Shown in pieces: positions 3,782-17,117 of a DNA stretch of 45,698 nucleotides. The notes under the pieces are model-generated. The model saw only the letters and a program-made list of their open reading frames with translations. It was not told the DNA's origin and ran no database searches. Position 1 is the first letter of the stretch; every line of letters starts with the position of its first letter. The stretch lies in contig WTKN01000021.1 in NCBI GenBank assembly GCA_011524395.1, positions 1 through 45,698 on the forward strand, given 5' to 3'. The stretch comes from Moorena sp. SS36440bin_2. GTDB taxonomy: Bacteria; Cyanobacteriota; Cyanobacteriia; Cyanobacteriales; Coleofasciculaceae. A program made the position numbers and the translations under genes.

Positions 3782-5932
3782 CTATAACGCTGCTGCTTCC
3801 CGTGCTGCGGCAGCTTCGTCGGGATGAATGTTCAAACGGGTTAAATTAAGACGACCCTTGTTGTCAATTTCCCGTATTTTGACAACTACCTCATCTCCTA
3901 CCGCTAACTCATCTTCCACTTTGCCAACTCGGTAGTCAGCCAGTTGGGAAATGTGAATCATACCTTCTTTGCCAGGAAGTATTTCCACAAAGGCACCAAT
4001 GGGAATAATCCGGGTGACACGACCAACATAGACATCCCCTTCATTCAGCTTGCGGGTTAAGCCTTGGATGATACTGATAGCTTTTGTAGCCCTATCCCCA
4101 TCCATAGCAGATACGGTAACTGTACCGTCATCTTCAATATCGATTTTTGCCCCAGTTTGCTCGGTAATTCCTTTAATTGTCTTACCCCCTGGACCAATGA
4201 CTGTACCGATGAACTCCGGATCAATCTTCATGGTTAACAGACGAGGAGCAAAGGGTGACATGTCTGTGGAGGGTGTGTCAATCACCGCCAGCATCTTTTC
4301 TAGGATATGCAGTCTGGCCGGTTTGGCTTGCTCAATGGCCTGGGCTATGGTGTCCATGGACAAACCAGTGATTTTCATGTCCATTTGCAAAGCCGTGATG
4401 CCAGTATCGGTACCAGCGACTTTGAAGTCCATGTCACCCAAAAAGTCTTCAATACCTTGAATATCGGTGAGAATGCGGACTTCCTCTCCTTCTTTGATCA
4501 AACCCATGGCTGCACCACTAACCGGTTTGATAATAGGTACACCTGAATCCATCAAGGCCAGTGTTGAACCACAAACCGAGCCCATGGAGGTGGAACCATT
4601 GGAGGAGAGCACTTCCGATACCACTCGGATCACATAGGGAAACTCGTGTTGAGGGGGCAATACTGGCACTAATGCTCGTTCGGCTAAAGCTCCGTGACCA
4701 ATTTCACGCCGTCCGGGCGATCGCAATGGCTTGACTTCCCCGACAGAAAAGGGTGGGAAATTGTAGTGGTGCAGATAGCGCTTCTCATCTTCTGGGTTAA
4801 GGTCATCTAGAGTTTGGGCATCTCCAGGTGTTCCCAAGGTAACCGTGGATAGGACTTGGGTTAGTCCTCGGTTGAACAAAGCGCTACCATGAACTCGCTG
4901 AGGTAATAGACTGGTTTGACAAGAGACAGGACGCACTTGGTCTAGCTTGCGACCATCTACGCGCACTCCGTCTTCCACAATCTGAGTACGCATCAGTTTT
5001 TTGGTGAGGCTTTTGAACAGCTTATCGACTAATGCGCTATTTTCAGTAACCGCTACACGGATTGGGTCATCCTCTTTGAGTTCGGCAATTTCTGCTTTGA
5101 CAGCAGTGTCCTTAACTTCATCTAAGGCAACATCACGACCCTTTTTGTCCAGGTCAAATTGGGTGAGGATAGCTTTAATTTTGTCAGTGGCGCGATCGCG
5201 AATAAATTCTTCTAGATTCGAGTCTACGGCTGGGGGTTCGGCAATCACTATTTCAATTCCCAACTCCTCAAGCAGGTCTTGCTGGGCTTTGATCAAGTCT
5301 TGTACTGCTTCGTAGCCGAAATCGATGGCCTCGATTATATCTTGTTCCGGTAATTGATTGGCACCGGCTTCTACCATAATTACCCCTTGTGGGGAACCAG
5401 CCACGACTAAGTCCAAGTCGCCGTTTTCGATTTCTTTGTAGGTGGGATTAATCATAAAATCATCCCCGAGTAACCCTACCCGTACAGCTGCCATTGGTCC
5501 ATAGAAGGGAATGCTGCCCTGCAACACAGCAATCGATGCACCAGTAACTGCCAAAACATCTGGCGGTACTTGTTCATCCATAGACAGGGTAGTTGCTACA
5601 ATCTGTATATCATCTCGTAGCCAACTGGGAAATAACGGACGCAAGGGACGGTCAATGAGACGGCTAGTTAGGATAACTTTTTCTGGAGGACGGCCTTCCC
5701 GCCTGAGGAAACCACCTGGAATCCGACCTGCTGCGTAGAGTCTTTCTTCGTAGTCAACTACCAAGGGCAGAAAATCGACCCCTTCTCGACCAGGGGCACG
5801 AGTTGCTGTCACTAAAACTGCTGTATCCCCCGACTGTATCATTACTGAACCACCAGATTGAGGGGCAAGTAGACCTACTTTGAGTCTAATATCCCGTCCA
5901 TCAAAGGATATTGACTTGTCTATCTCTACCAT
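3782..5932 (-). CDS. pnp: Polyribonucleotide nucleotidyltransferase (PNPase)
   Basis: 716 aa, the usual length. It is a phosphorolytic 3'-to-5' exoribonuclease and RNA-tailing enzyme of the cytosolic RNA-degradation machinery. Two RNase PH domains are visible: the first with [21 protein letters not shown] (residues ~81-101), the second with ALVPVLPPQ and the catalytic region '[13 protein letters not shown]...LMDSGVP'. A linker precedes a KH domain (IGPGGKTI near 578-585) and a C-terminal S1 domain ([11 protein letters not shown] to about residue 702). The C-terminal tail is short and alanine-rich. Cyanobacteria use PNPase for both decay and polyadenylation; this is family knowledge. Gene order with tpiA and folP is co-directional. 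Confidence 0.97.
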
Positions 5933-6673: not shown

Positions 6674-9600
6674 ATGGCAACGTTACATGGCAGTTGGATA
6701 CCTAGGGAAACTAATGGTCATCTATTTATTTGGGGAGAAACCTGGCGCACGAAGGCGCAGATATCAACTACTGCCAATGATATGTCATGTCACCCGTTTG
6801 CCATGACTGAGGAAGAATTGACGTCTTTTTTAGATTCTCATCGTCTGTCCATCGGTCAATTTTTAGAGGTGTCTGAGAAGGCCCGTTCAGGTAGTCGTAA
6901 GCGTAGTGCTCAACAGCATCACCATCCCTGGGAGTCTCAAATTGTTCTGTTACCTACTCAACCATCATCCAAGGGTGAGCCAGCTTATCCAGTGCTGTCT
7001 AGCAAACTGTTGTTAGATAGTGCAGAGGATAGCGCAGAGGGTAGCCAGTGGGAATTGCAACCATGGCAAGTGCAAGGGGTAATTCTGGAACCGATGGCAG
7101 CGGTAAAATTTCTGCAAGCTTTACCCCTGGGCTCCTTTGAAGGCTCAGACGCTTACCTGGGAGGGGAGTTGCGTTTTTGGTCTCAGGTGATGCGCTGGAG
7201 CTTGGATCTGCTGAATCGGGGTAAGTTTTTACCAGGAGTGTACCCATTGCCTGATGGTAAGGTAAGGGCTTGCTGGCAACCTCTGCTTGATAGTACTACG
7301 GATCAAGTCCGTCTAGAAACCTATATCAAGCTCATGCCCTCGGCTTGCTGTGCTTATCCACAAGAGGTTAGTTCTCCACAGTTGACCCTTGAAAGCTCCA
7401 ACCTACAACCAACCAACCTTGGCCAAAAGGCCACGCTACGCGAACAACCTCCTAACCTTAAACCTGCCAACCTTAAACCTGCAACCGATTTGGTTAAGGC
7501 TCAGGAATTGCTACTGGGATTCTTGAGTAGTGTGGTTAATACACAGGTGCATAATTTTGTCAAGGGTGAGTCGGTGCCAGTAGTAGATTCACCGATGGTG
7601 GAATGGTTGCGATCGCTTTCTTCTAATTTGTCTTCTAATTCAGATAATTTAGAAACCCTAGGGCTAGAGTCAACAACCTTAGGTCGATTAGCCGCAGCCC
7701 TCTCGACTTGGAACACTCCGGTGCAACAGAATTTAGTGACACCGACGTCCAAGAGGTTGAGGCAAAATCTGTTTCGCACCTGTTTTATCCTGAAGCCTCC
7801 TACCTCTGACCAAGAGAATTGGAGCTTGGCCTATGGCTTACAAGCGGTTGATGACCCAGACCTGGTGGTGGATGCTGAGACGATCTGGAATTACTCCGGA
7901 GAGCGATTGGAGATTAAGCAGCGAAGCATTGAACAACCTCAGGAAACCTTCCTAAAAGGGTTAGGATTAGCGACTCGACTCTATCCTCCCATCGAACCTA
8001 GCCTACACCAATCCCGTCCTGAGTTTTGTGAGCTAACCATAGTAGATGTGTATGAGTTCATTAGGGCTAGTGCATGGCGGTTGCAAAACAATGGCTTGGG
8101 TATTGTGCTACCCCCAGGATTGAAACCAGGCACGGGAGCCAAACGCTTGGGGATTAGTCTTGTGGCGGAAGTGCCACCACAAAAGAAGAATCAACGGTTA
8201 GGACTCCAAAGCTTACTGAAGTTTAAGTGGCAACTGGCGATTGGAGATAAAACCATCTCGAAGCGGGAGTTTAATCGCTTGATGGCACTGAAATCACCGC
8301 TAGTGGAGGTGGATGGGGAATGGATGGCGTTACAACCGTCTGATGTCCGTGCAGCTCAAGAGATGTTTAAGGGTTCGACAGATAACATGACTCTGTCGGT
8401 AGAGGATGCTTTGCGGATCACTACTGGTGATAATAATACCTTGGCAAAACTACCAGTAGTGAAGTTTGAAGCATCGGGAGCGTTGCAAGAGTTAATTACT
8501 AACTTACAGGGGAATCAATCCCTGGAGCCGATTCCTCAACCTGCGAGTTTTCAGGGGCAATTGCGACCCTATCAAGCTAGAGGGATGGGCTGGCTGGCCT
8601 TTCTGGAACGTTGGGGTTTGGGTGCTTGTCTGGCGGATGATATGGGCCTTGGTAAGACGGCACAACTGATTGCGTTTCTGTTGCATCTTCAGGAAGAAGG
8701 TACCCTCAATGGACCCTGCTTAGTGGTATGTCCCACGTCTGTGCTAGGAAACTGGGAACGGGAAGTAAAGAAATTTGCCCCATCCCTGAAAACTATTGTC
8801 CATCACGGGGATAAACGCTCCAAAGGGAAAGCCTTTGCTAAGGCAGTGAAGACTAAGCAGGTGATCATTACCAGTTATTCTTTAGTACATCGGGATGCTA
8901 CTACCCTGGATGGGGTGGAATGGCAGGGGGTGGTGCTGGATGAAGCTCAGAATATTAAGAATCCTAGCGCTAAGCAATCCCAAGCAGTCAAGCAACTTTC
9001 CACTAGCTTTCGGATTGCCTTAACCGGTACTCCCGTGGAAAATCGGTTGTCGGAATTGTGGTCAATTATCGATTTTCTCAATCCTGGGTATTTAGGCGAT
9101 CGCCAATTCTTCCAACGTCGATTTGCTGTACCCATTGAGAAGTTTGGCGACCGGGATTCCTTGCAGACCATGCGATCGCTAGTGCAACCCTTTATCCTCC
9201 GTCGCCTCAAAACCGATAAGTCTATTATTCAAGATTTGCCCGAAAAGCAGGAAATGAATGTTTTTTGTGGTCTTTCCGCAGCCCAAGCTACGGTTTATCA
9301 ACAGTTGGTGGATGATTCCTTAGCACAAATTGAAGAGGCTGAGGGGATTAAGCGCAAGGGCATGATTTTGACGTTGTTGTTGAGACTCAAGCAACTGTGT
9401 AATCATCCGGCACTGTTGGACAGTAAGGGGAAAAAGACTAAAGGGAAAACGGCAGATAATTCGTTAATGTCTAGCCAGCAGTCGGGTAAGTTACGACGGT
9501 TGGAAGAAATGTTAGAAGAAGCGATTTCTGAGGGAGACCGTGGCTTAATTTTTACCCAATTTTCGGAATGGGGTAAATTGCTGAAACCCTATTTAGAGCA

Positions 9601-13344: not shown

Positions 13345-13649
13345 GGGGGGTGATGTGTATAAAGGATTTTTTTTAGGGAGCAGGGAGTAGGGAGCAGGGA
13401 GCAGGGAGACTTTTGGCAACGTTACACAAGTTCATACAATAACGCACCACCGGATAAAACCGTAACAATGAAATGCCCCCGATGGCAATTGCCCTATGGC
13501 TGGCTGGTAATGATCCTATATTAAAATAATATATTGCGGTTTTTAATTAGGTGAGGTTTTTAGGGAACAGTGCGTAGGGTGGGCAAAATAATAGTATCTA
13601 GAATTATTAAAAGAACCAAAGGGTTTTCGCCCACCCTACTTAGAAAGAA
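13345..13649. other. 305-bp spacer with heptamers and an inverted repeat
   Basis: Between the 932-aa TPR gene and the ATPase gene. It holds GGGAGCA/GGGAGTA heptamers (13375-13410). It also holds an 11-bp inverted repeat, GTAGGGTGGGC at 13574-13584 with GCCCACCCTAC at 13629-13639, which may act as a terminator or processing hairpin for the TPR transcript. No ORF is credible. Confidence 0.65.
13375..13410. repeat. Heptanucleotide STRR (GGGAGCA/GGGAGTA)
   Basis: Four to five heptamers directly upstream of the chosen ATPase start. In-frame translation of this block creates the false N-terminal extension. Confidence 0.8.
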
Positions 13650-13672
13650 TCAACGGCTTTTTGCCCACCCTA
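13574..13672. repeat. Inverted repeat GTAGGGTGGGC at the TPR gene 3' end
   Basis: GTAGGGTGGGC (13574-13584) and GCCCACCCTAC (13629-13639) are perfect 11-bp arms. A third copy, GCCCACCCTA (13663-13672), lies inside the 3' end of the coding sequence and encodes LLGWAK. The sequence TCTAGAATT-TTAAAAGAA between the arms is shared with 10070-10090. Confidence 0.8.
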
Positions 13673-16448
13673 AAAGATTCTTGATTTTTGATACTATTGT
13701 TAACAATATGTATGTAAAACTTAATACAAATATCACTCGGGTTACCCGGATCCAATATTTAGGAAATGCGTCAAATGTATAAACTTTAAGCACTTTTTGG
13801 TAACAAGCGATCTCTTTTTCTATATTCTGTGCTTTGGGACCTGTGATTCTCTGAGAGTAAGCACTACCGAGATTGTATTGAGTGATTGCCCAATATTCGG
13901 GAAAAGCGTCAAAGGTATAAACTGTAAGAGCCTGTTGGTAACAAGCGATCGCATCTTCTAGGTTTTGTGCTTTGGGACCTGTGATTCTCTGAGAGTAAGC
14001 ACTACCGAGATTGTATTGAATCCTTGCCCAATCCATAGGAAATGCTTCACGGGTGTGAACTCCTAAACCCGATTGGAAATAAGCGATCGCATGTTCTATA
14101 TTCTGTGCTTTTTCACCTTTGATTCGCTCACGGTAAGCAAAACCGAGATTATAGTTTGTCTGTGCCCAATCTTCGGGAAAATCCTCAAAGGTTCTGACTG
14201 TAAGAGCCTGTTGGAAGCAAGCGATCGCATCTTCTAGGTTTTGTGCTTTGTGACCTGTGATTCTGTTACCGTAAGCAATACCGAAATTGTATTGAGTCAT
14301 TGCCCATTGTTCGGGAAATGCTTCACGGGTGTAAACTGATAAAGCCAATTGGAAGCAAGCGATGGCATCTTCTTGGTTTTGTGCTTTGGGACCTGTGATT
14401 CTATAATAGTAAGCACGACCGAGATTATATTGAGTCGATGCCCATTGTTCGGGAAATGCTTCACGGGTGTGAACTGATACAACCGATTGGAAGCAAGCGA
14501 TGGCATGTTCTTGGTTTTGTGCTTTCTCCCCTGTGATTCTTTTACCGTAAGCACTACCGAGATGGTTTTGAGTCATTGCCCATTCAATAGGAAATGCTTC
14601 ACGGGTGTAAACTGATAAAGCCGATTGGTAGCAAGTGATGGCCTCTTCTAGATTTTGTACCTTCTGACCTGTGATTCTCTCAGAGTAAGCACTACCGAGA
14701 TTGAATTGAGTCGATGCCCATTGTTCGGGAAAAGCTTCACGGGTGTAAACTGATAAAGCCAATTGGAAGCAAGTGATGGCCTCTTCTAGATTTTGTGCTT
14801 TCGGACCTGTGATTCTCTCAGAGTAAGCACTACCGAGATTGAATTGAGTCTGTGCCCAATCCATAGGAAAAATTGCGCTGGTGTAAACTGCTAAAGCCAA
14901 TTGGTAGCAAGTGATGGCATGTTCTAGGTTTTGTGCTTTATCCCCTATGATTCTGTTATAGTAAGCACTACCGAGATTGTATTGAGTCATTGCCCATTGT
15001 TCGGGAAATGCTTCACGGGTGCATACTTCTAAAGCTAATTGGAAGCAAGGGATGGAATCTTCTATATTCTGTGGTTTAGGACCTTTGATTCTGTCAAGGT
15101 AAGCACGACCGAGATTGTTTTGAGTCATTGCCCATTGTTCGGGAAATGCTTCACGGGTGCATACTTCTAAAGCCAATTGGTAGCAAGCCATGGCATGTTC
15201 TAGGTTTTGTGCTCTCTGGCCTGTAATTCTCTCAGAGTAAGCAATACCGAGATTGTTTTGAGTCATTGCCCATGGTTCGGGACATGCTTCACGGCTGTAA
15301 ACTGATAAAGCCAATTGGTAGCAAGCGATCGCCTCTTCTTGGTTTTGTGTTCTCTGGCCTGTGATTCTCTCAGAGTAAGCAAGACCGAGATTGAATTGAG
15401 TCATTGCCCATGGTTCGGGACATGCTTCACGGGTGTAAACGGCTAAAGCCAATTGGTAGCAAGCGATGGCATGTTCTAGGTTTTGTGCTTTATCCCCTGT
15501 GATTGTTTTATAGTAAGCAATACCGAGATTGAATTGAGTCATTGCCCATTCAATAGGAAATGCTTCACGAGTGCGAACTACTAAAGCCAATTGGAAGCAA
15601 GTGATGGCATGTTCTAGGTTTTGTGCTCTCTGGCCTGTGATTCTCTCAGAGTAAGCACTACCGAGATTGAATTGAGTCATTGCCCAATCCATAGGAAATG
15701 CTTCACGAGTGCGAACTACTAAAGCCAATTGGTAGCAAGTGATGGCATCTTCTTGGTTTTGTGCTTTATCCCCTGTGATTCTCTCATAGTAAGTACGACC
15801 GAGATTGTTTTGAGTCATTGCCCATTGTTCGGGAAATGCTTCACGGGTGTAAACTGATAAAGCCAATTGGTAGCAAGCGATCGCCTCTTCTAGGTTTTGT
15901 GCTTTGGGATCTGTGATTCTCTCAGAGTAAGCATTACCGACATGGTATTTAGTCATTGCCCATTGTTCGGCAAATGCTTCACGGGTATAAACTGATAAAG
16001 CCAATTGGTAGCAAGCGATGGCATGTTCTAGGTTTTGTGCTTTATCCCCTATGATTCTGTTATAGTAAGCACTACCGAGATTGTTTTGAGTCGTTGCCCA
16101 TTGAATAGGAAATGCTTCACGAGTGAAAACAGTTAGTGCCATTTCATAACCAGTGATGGCAATTGAGCTATTGCTGGCTTTATCACCCAAGGGGAATTCC
16201 TGAAGTAGATTGCTGAAGTCAACAATAACTGCTGCTATATTTTCCGCTTCATTTGGTTTAACTTCAGCCAGCTTAGTTGTTGCCCCAGCCCGCAATAATT
16301 CTGCTAATCTATCATCCAGTTTGTCTGTATTTGCTTCCAGTAATGGGTAAACTACCTGCTGATCACCCCTACTGTCTGCAGTTGCTTGTAGTACATCTAA
16401 GAGAAAGTCAAGTTGGGCATCAGATGTGTTGTGATTCACCCCTATCAT
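13650..16448 (-). CDS. Large TPR-repeat protein, 17 near-identical 46-aa units
   Basis: 932 aa. An N-terminal helical cap (1-~107, with LLEANTDKLDDRLAELLR and NFSNLLQ-like VDFSNLLQEFPLG) resembles caps of cyanobacterial TPR-CHAT proteins. Then 17 consecutive units of exactly 46 residues follow, consensus TREAFPEQWAMTQ-NLG-AY--RITG-KAQN-E-AI-C-Q-AL-V, and a degenerate 18th. The usual C-terminal CHAT protease or other effector is absent. Instead the protein ends in a hydrophobic/basic segment (VIFVLSFTYILLTIVSKIKN) homologous to the tail of the inactive-STAND protein, possibly a membrane anchor. The repeats are strikingly alike at the DNA level (138-bp period), suggesting recent expansion or gene conversion. 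TPRs mediate protein binding; the partner is presumably one of the two genes downstream. The start is the first ATG of the cap; no strong ribosome site is seen. Confidence 0.78.
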   Translation of the reverse strand: MIGVNHNTSDAQLDFLLDVLQATADSRGDQQVVYPLLEANTDKLDDRLAELLRAGATTKLAEVKPNEAENIAAVIVDFSNLLQEFPLGDKASNSSIAITGYEMALTVFTREAFPIQWATTQNNLGSAYYNRIIGDKAQNLEHAIACYQLALSVYTREAFAEQWAMTKYHVGNAYSERITDPKAQNLEEAIACYQLALSVYTREAFPEQWAMTQNNLGRTYYERITGDKAQNQEDAITCYQLALVVRTREAFPMDWAMTQFNLGSAYSERITGQRAQNLEHAITCFQLALVVRTREAFPIEWAMTQFNLGIAYYKTITGDKAQNLEHAIACYQLALAVYTREACPEPWAMTQFNLGLAYSERITGQRTQNQEEAIACYQLALSVYSREACPEPWAMTQNNLGIAYSERITGQRAQNLEHAMACYQLALEVCTREAFPEQWAMTQNNLGRAYLDRIKGPKPQNIEDSIPCFQLALEVCTREAFPEQWAMTQYNLGSAYYNRIIGDKAQNLEHAITCYQLALAVYTSAIFPMDWAQTQFNLGSAYSERITGPKAQNLEEAITCFQLALSVYTREAFPEQWASTQFNLGSAYSERITGQKVQNLEEAITCYQSALSVYTREAFPIEWAMTQNHLGSAYGKRITGEKAQNQEHAIACFQSVVSVHTREAFPEQWASTQYNLGRAYYYRITGPKAQNQEDAIACFQLALSVYTREAFPEQWAMTQYNFGIAYGNRITGHKAQNLEDAIACFQQALTVRTFEDFPEDWAQTNYNLGFAYRERIKGEKAQNIEHAIAYFQSGLGVHTREAFPMDWARIQYNLGSAYSQRITGPKAQNLEDAIACYQQALTVYTFDAFPEYWAITQYNLGSAYSQRITGPKAQNIEKEIACYQKVLKVYTFDAFPKYWIRVTRVIFVLSFTYILLTIVSKIKNLLGWAKSR

Positions 16449-16621
16449 TAACTCCCATCAATGGCTCTATAGTATCTCCTATTATTTTATAGCCTTTCTC
16501 CTAGCTATCAAGTAAACATTATTTTTTCCCTATTGCTAGCATGCTTCTTTCCTGGCGCGTAGCGCTATACCTAATTGCAACACTGAGATGCCCCCAACAA
16601 GTCCTGCCATGTGATCAAATT

Positions 16622-16894
16622 GTACTCGTTAACAGCAAAAAAGTACTAGTTTATTAGCAACAAGTACTAGTTAATGAGAAACTAGTACTCCTTAGGAAGA
16701 AACGGGTACCCCTTTGTTACACACCAGTACTGACTTACAAGAAACGAGTACTAGTTAATGAGAAACTAGTACTCGTTTGTTATATATGGGTACCCCTTTG
16801 TTACACAGCAGTACTGGTTTACCAGAAAATAGTACTGCTGTGTGAGAAATTAGTACTCGTTAGCAATAAATGGGTACTGGTGTCTTAGAAATGA
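16622..16894. repeat. 21-bp phased array of 13 GTAC palindromic cores
   Basis: GTAC occurs at 16622, 16643, 16664, 16685, 16706, 16727, 16748, 16769, 16790, 16811, 16832, 16853 and 16874, always exactly 21 bp apart. The unit consensus is GTACTCGTT followed by A-rich sequence with AGAAA. There is an 84-bp (four-unit) higher-order repeat: the units at 16664 and 16748 are identical, and those at 16706 and 16790 differ at one base. Adjacent units form perfect inverted repeats: 13-bp arms at 16744-16776 and 12-bp arms CACAGCAGTACT/AGTACTGCTGTG around 16811-16832. A degenerate unit (GTCCTG) sits at 16601. Function is unknown; it lies 173-446 bp upstream of the TPR gene start. Confidence 0.9.
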
Positions 16895-16970
16895 TTACCT
16901 GGTCTAGTGTATTGTTAACCCTTGAGCCTTATAGCCCTACGCGCAAGTCAAAAGTATAGGGTTTTTAGGG

Positions 16971-17117
16971 CCCGTTGCTGATTCTGAGTATGGTTTCGCC
17001 CCCCTAGCCCCCCAATTCTGGGGGGAAAAAACTCTAAAAGTCCCCCAGAATTGGGGGATTTAGGGGGCTTTAATAAAACCAAATTATCGCGCATTCATTC
17101 CTTAATTCAGCAACGCC
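16971..17117. mobile_element. 147-bp MITE-like element with 8-bp target duplication
   Basis: The left end, CCCGTTGCTGATTC, is inverted relative to the right end, GAATTCAGCAACGCC-like (CTTAATTCAGCAACGCC). The element is flanked on both sides by the direct repeat TTTTAGGG (16963-16970 and 17118-17125). Inside is a strong hairpin, CCCCCAATTCTGGGGG paired with CCCCCAGAATTGGGGG. There is no ORF, so it is non-autonomous. The ends resemble those of the element at 27803-27993. Confidence 0.85.

Follow-up and report, generated by a model that had tools for sequence, protein, structure and literature searches.

Why should the tetranucleotide GTAC recur, at steps of exactly two turns of the DNA helix, in front of a large TPR-repeat gene in a cyanobacterium of the genus Moorena? 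Such a row could be read as DNA by a protein, as RNA through its folding, as codons, or not at all. The window (the whole stretch of DNA that was analysed, 45,698 nucleotides) is contig C344 in the 7.75-Mb genome of Moorena sp. SS36440bin_2. The initial annotation of this DNA offered three guesses for the row: a phased operator, a structured RNA, or an abandoned heptapeptide-repeat gene. Of these, the operator is favoured here, on the grounds of dyad-symmetric constraint, helical phase and position next to genes; that a protein binds the row is what we infer from them.

Layout of the array

The 13 exact cores reported for the array are present, and 12 of 12 intervals between them are 21 bp (Table 1). 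Shuffling does not yield such rows: when the whole window was dinucleotide-shuffled 100 times, the longest chain of GTAC at 21-bp steps had two members, and when the array region was shuffled 2000 times it had three. The family consensus unit is GTACTNGTTTNTNANAAACNA, with dyads centred on GTAC and on the spacer. Because these dyads are 10.5 bp apart, all sites lie on one face of the helix.

Two further features of the initial annotation, i.e., a degenerate unit ahead of the first exact core and an 84-bp higher-order repeat, were confirmed. Tandem Repeats Finder gave periods of 20–21, 42 and 84 at the array (and no 7-bp unit), and the related array L311 is shorter than the window array by exactly 84 bp, the length of the higher-order repeat. 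The window, L300 and L311 have the 3′ tail block in common, until about position 16935. Perfect inverted repeats between neighbouring units had also been described; these exist in the window array, where the predicted fold has a 15-pair stem with a 7-base loop, but are exceptional across the family, in which only 3 of 162 neighbouring unit pairs have seven or more perfect pairs outside GTAC (20 array pieces, seven near-duplicate pieces being omitted, as in the complementarity counts below).

Table 1. Features at the array locus (positions in the window)
Feature	Position	Strand	Remarks
TPR-repeat gene	13650..16448	-	932 aa; start faces the array
Tandem array of DNA within the TPR gene	13797..16130		138-bp unit, 16.9 copies, 82% matches
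Degenerate first unit	16601..16621	+	core GTCC; by eye, like the 5′ end of other arrays (CATGTGA...)
Array, 13 units	16614..16886	+	exact GTAC cores at 16622, 16643 ... 16874, i.e., 16622 + 21k (k = 0..12)
Higher-order repeat within the array	16659..16877	+	four units (84 bp)
Conserved 3′ tail	16887..16935	+	degenerate in-phase unit TTAC at 16895, then block
MITE-like inverted repeat	17000..17075		CCCCCCAATTCTGGGGGG ... CCCCAGAATTGGGGGATTTAGGGGG; by eye, beside other arrays too

A family of arrays in Moorena

The array is one of many. BLAST with the window array found seven further loci in its own genome and others in three other Moorena genomes, and the suggested search of related genomes gave 24 loci over the four genomes (8, 5, 5 and 6 per genome), two intron-split pieces being taken as one locus. 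Outside the 24 are L305 (G001 C1:1338030), a short match without a row of three cores, and weak short matches. Of the 242 intervals from core to core in the 25 array pieces, 232 are multiples of 21; the others measure 20 (six), 41 (one), 26 (two) and 73 (one). The claim that the spacing has no slip is therefore true of the window array but not of the family, where these 10 of 242 intervals depart from it. In L304 (G001 C1), a family array is interrupted by a group II intron (RF00029, 60.9 bits, 9317–9395), which separates two array pieces by 4.3 kb, between 5103 and 9403; its 5′ end, judged by eye, is near 5113.

The pattern AGTACTNGTTN7AACNAGTACT occurs in one of 386 genomes of the phylum, namely the window's own, in a sample without the other Moorena genomes; in viral contigs it occurs in two stretches, each with a single core pair. 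A three-unit profile matches five of 20 genomes of the bacterial family (the four Moorena genomes and G007, from a sister genus), and a four-core pattern matches six (the same five and G015, where the match appears to resemble a Ser/Gly codon repeat). The bare pattern of GTAC every 21 bp matches at least 118 stretches in genome contigs and 107 in viral contigs; among the matches scored, most of the 70 listed are near-identical tandem repeats. Dyad symmetry of 9/10 was found in 4 of 109 genome-contig arrays, the Moorena array L104 being among the four. In the titles and abstract openings of the literature covered, outside which most subscription journals lie, no description of such arrays was found.

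Genes beside the arrays

The start of the window TPR gene is 174 bp from the first array core. Its protein has no CHAT match; relatives such as that at L306 have a C-terminal CHAT domain. The gene facing the array encodes TPR and/or CHAT at 13 of 24 loci (the window, L294, L296, L297, L301, L302, L304, L306, L307, L308, L313, L314 and L315, with L294 and L315 classed as TPR through BLAST to the window TPR protein) and a TPS secretion domain at two of 24 (L293 and L298). At the other nine of 24 it is neither of these: CAP (L299 and L309), RRXRR-HNH with an EAD4-NB-ARC gene on the opposite side (L303 and L312), the g490 gene with an AAA-type match (L300 and L311), phospholipid methyltransferase with a WD40-TPR gene on the opposite side (L295), and the SHMT/PEP-CTERM region (L310 and, by DNA identity, L316).

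Among the CHAT matches listed, a CHAT domain is within 5 kb of at least 12 of 24 loci. In G001 this applies to three of five loci, against 0.23 expected at random places (p = 0.0009; 37 CHAT places on C1, out of 51 matches counted in the genome), although the CHAT/TPR loci are not independent cases, because many are relatives of one gene subfamily. One CHAT domain in that genome (G001:C1:227443-228255) is within an open frame of 14,761 codons.

In the 19 gene-side flanks taken from the 24 loci, the distance from array to gene is 5 to 652 bp. A TATAAT stands 79–99 bases from the last core in five of the 19, all relatives of the TPR gene; it stands at different distances in L306, L315 and L296, and it was not found in at least six of the other flanks. 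By eye, the orientation of the array relative to the gene is flipped in the window lineage. The stretch 13639–16624, which carries the TPR gene, parts two blocks that are at most 5 bp apart in L300, and since one junction of this stretch coincides with the array edge, the array is at a breakpoint.

Substitutions between orthologous arrays

Stems should show compensation, and codons should show a third-position rhythm. Rates were counted in three pairs of orthologous arrays (window–L300, L294–L302 and L301–L313). Core positions had changed in 0 of 152 cases and positions ±1 to ±4 in 27 of 304 (p = 2e-5); in the spacer, 14 of 363 had changed. Two comparisons omitted from the core count do contain core changes: window–L306 (2 of 48 core positions) and window–L311 (3 of 32, all in the first unit, where the L311 homology ends). 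The pair L303–L312 was omitted from the rate counts, because its two arrays have different numbers of units and were aligned out of register.

The profile around the core was drawn from four pairs, i.e., the above three and L300–L306. At distances 1 to 8 from the core, the numbers of changes were 2, 8, 8, 0, 2, 1, 4, 1 in the left arm and 2, 9, 6, 0, 2, 3, 2, 2 in the right arm. The two profiles mirror each other (r = 0.89, permutation p = 0.008): core plus ±4 had changed at 2 of 300 positions, and ±2 and ±3 at 31 of 200.

BLAST identity between the window and L300 is 96.1% in the array block, 92.8% in the neighbouring gene and 89.0% in the downstream stretch (a flank figure of 40/153 for this pair was not used, as that flank extends into non-aligning sequence), whereas in L294–L302 and L301–L313 changes were no rarer in the array than in the flank (19/231 vs 23/298 and 14/336 vs 7/318).

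A proposed row of sites for a dimeric protein

Halves that are equally constrained, without compensatory change, are the trace of a protein dimer, and for this reason an operator-like array was chosen over the other explanations. Repeated two-fold-symmetric sites in helical phase, one mark of a tandem operator array for a dimeric regulator, are what the family contains. To judge from the DNA, the array may thus be an upstream, operator-like row of two-fold-symmetric sites for a putative dimeric DNA-binding protein, a proposal for which confidence and doubt are about equally weighted. The sites would be approximately AAC-N-AGTACT-N-GTT, two helical turns apart; dimers of the putative sequence-specific protein would sit next to one another along a single face of the DNA, probably in a cooperative manner; and the bound protein would control the large TPR/CHAT and TPS genes, most likely by repressing or gating them. 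What speaks most strongly against a protein site pure and simple is the excess complementarity of the arms (given below with the hairpins), which a dimer site alone does not account for. Also weighing against the proposal are the nine loci with other neighbours, the kinship among the CHAT/TPR genes, the flipped orientation in the window lineage, the spread of array-to-gene distances and of TATAAT positions, the two orthologue pairs whose arrays are no better conserved than the flank, and the core changes in L306.

A wider and distinctly more speculative scheme, unlikely as a whole, is that of a genus-wide regulon: the putative protein would assemble on the phased dyads before genes for CHAT caspase-like, TPS and other conflict-type proteins, the array would derive from a copy-control or partition array of a plasmid, and the number of units, changing in whole 21-bp steps, would tune the response. 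In practical terms, the arrays, of which each genome has 5 to 8 loci, provide a concrete DNA target in the search for a protein that may act on CHAT/TPR genes, and the symmetric substitution profile illustrates how a comparison of orthologous arrays can aid in telling protein sites apart from RNA hairpins or genes before experiments are begun.

Other explanations of the array

The array could instead be an inert satellite, i.e., an old tandem repeat, phased by unequal recombination and copied together with the TPR modules, without function. Whole-unit indels such as the 84-bp loss, the heptamer repeats that often flank the arrays (by eye), and the presence in Nostocaceae of 21-bp arrays of different sequence would all suit this explanation. 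However, GTAC and ±4 are fixed and the substitution profile is symmetric, although neighbouring units are about one third different (identity 0.57–0.71 in the Moorena rows). An inert satellite is unlikely, though it deserves to be taken seriously.

Less probable again, and rather doubtful, is a centromere-like or iteron-like site: an array for partition or replication control of a plasmid which has moved into the chromosome. It arises from a contig of the sister genus (G007 C681, 8,718 bp) with six GTAC cores at intervals of 21, 21, 21, 31 and 21 (profile E = 1.2e-9). On one side of these cores is a gene of the plasmid-replication type CyRepA1 (355.5 bits, above the cut-off), and on the other is the gene for a 204-aa protein whose helix-turn-helix matches fall below the Pfam cut-off; the array begins 28 bp before the ATG of the latter gene. 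The same contig carries a 32-bp tandem repeat of 12.4 copies (L392, 123–520). Against a plasmid origin is the lack of any row of at least three phased GTAC in the other 19 of the 20 CyRepA1 or helix-turn-helix regions read, among them those of all four Moorena genomes. The six Moorena CyRepA1 regions read have no phased GTAC row, and among the regions read only in G007 C681 does a rep gene adjoin an array; the nearest likeness elsewhere is in G003 C21, where 2.6 copies of a 21-bp GGTACGATCGCATGGCCTTAG repeat follow CyRepA1. Neither 72,556 plasmid records nor 50,697 phage records gave a match to the L012 array (E 1e-5), and no partition family, whether of ATPase or adaptor, was found among 34 array-neighbour proteins scanned (for two of these, among the best 25 families). 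The helix-turn-helix protein of G007 was considered as the binder of the array and set aside, its CyRepA1-side relatives being without an array and relatives in the four Moorena genomes numbering 0 (E 0.001); it remains a lead.

A structured RNA, i.e., a row of hairpins in a leader transcript, is weakened by the same orthologues that favour a dimer site, and is now very unlikely. The array RNA folds strongly (z −7.0 on the + strand and −6.3 on the − strand, with 0 of 100 shuffles equally stable on either), but this does not discriminate, because any row of palindromes folds. More to the point is complementarity at ±1, which is 0.76 against 0.65 in shuffled arms (z 4.3, 20 pieces; z 6.8 in another count). 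Perfect arms are also longer than in shuffled arrays, both within units (z 4.5) and between neighbours (z 3.6), an excess that is absent at larger unit distances (z −0.4, 0.2 and 1.8). The complementarity excess could reflect the common ancestry of the units or a weak pairing constraint. On the other side, complementarity at ±2 and ±3 is barely over chance (0.35 vs 0.29 and 0.51 vs 0.47); in the four orthologue pairs, a base pair within three positions of the core was broken by 11 single and two double changes and made by four changes, and no double change kept one; and Rfam 15 gave no match in the window above the gathering score.

Intrinsic curvature upstream of promoters, from phased runs of AAA/TTT, is more doubtful still. 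In each of the eight arrays tested, AA/TT power at 10.5 bp is 1.4–2.6, where shuffles average about 0.2, but such a harmonic comes readily with any 21-bp repeat, and curvature, which is judged here from AA/TT power only, does not require a near-invariant GTAC.

The abandoned heptapeptide-repeat gene is hardly credible: one frame does read as VLVNEKR-like heptads with only 2–5 stops in the 10 arrays translated, but that best frame has at least two stops in 10 of 10, with a stop followed by Gln-Gln at one recurring place in 8 of 10, substitutions show no rhythm over the codon positions (22/15/19), the family has six one-base slips, and an 84-aa query matched 17 other genomes of the 386 only weakly (best 3.6e-7), the eight such loci inspected being other 21-bp arrays or short repeats.

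Comparison with known systems

Plasmid centromeres, such as sopC of F and parC of pSK41 and R1, consist of tandem phased repeats that serve as protein sites. In this they are like the Moorena arrays, by an analogy of how they would work. The Moorena arrays differ in being dispersed in the genome beside TPR/CHAT genes, in having two dyads per 21-bp unit, and in having neighbours without partition genes among the proteins scanned. Plasmid iterons are about 19–22 bp with two-turn spacing; the Moorena arrays are alike in unit length and spacing, and one array relative adjoins CyRepA1 in G007. However, the Moorena units are dyad-symmetric, and in the regions covered no Moorena array was seen to adjoin a rep gene.

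The cyanobacterial LexA box, given as RGTACNNNDGTWCB in the excerpt consulted of the source (PMC3091678), is also pseudo-palindromic with a GTAC half-site, but its half-sites as given there start 8 bp apart, whereas the array cores are 21 bp apart. A LexA operator was rejected: the window has 13 matches with at most one mismatch against 13.4 expected, and two of the 13 are in the array (one place with one mismatch, both strands), with no exact match among those listed.

The heptamer STRR, as outlined in excerpted accounts, are likewise tandem repeats of filamentous cyanobacteria, and 21 is 3 × 7; compared with these accounts, the Moorena units are diverged and dyad-symmetric, with a fixed core. 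The Nostocaceae-like genomes G086, G185, G356 and G119 have 21-bp arrays of other sequences (L317–L336), which in G086 occur in 11 of 11 regions read. The commonest type (CGTGAACGAGTCTTTGATACT) has the same 21-bp period, many loci and, by eye, ACTCGTKAACGAG in common with the Moorena unit. In contrast to those of Moorena, the Nostocaceae units are near-identical and have a different core, and a dyad score below p 0.05 was obtained for two of 26 Nostocaceae arrays and for four of five Moorena arrays.
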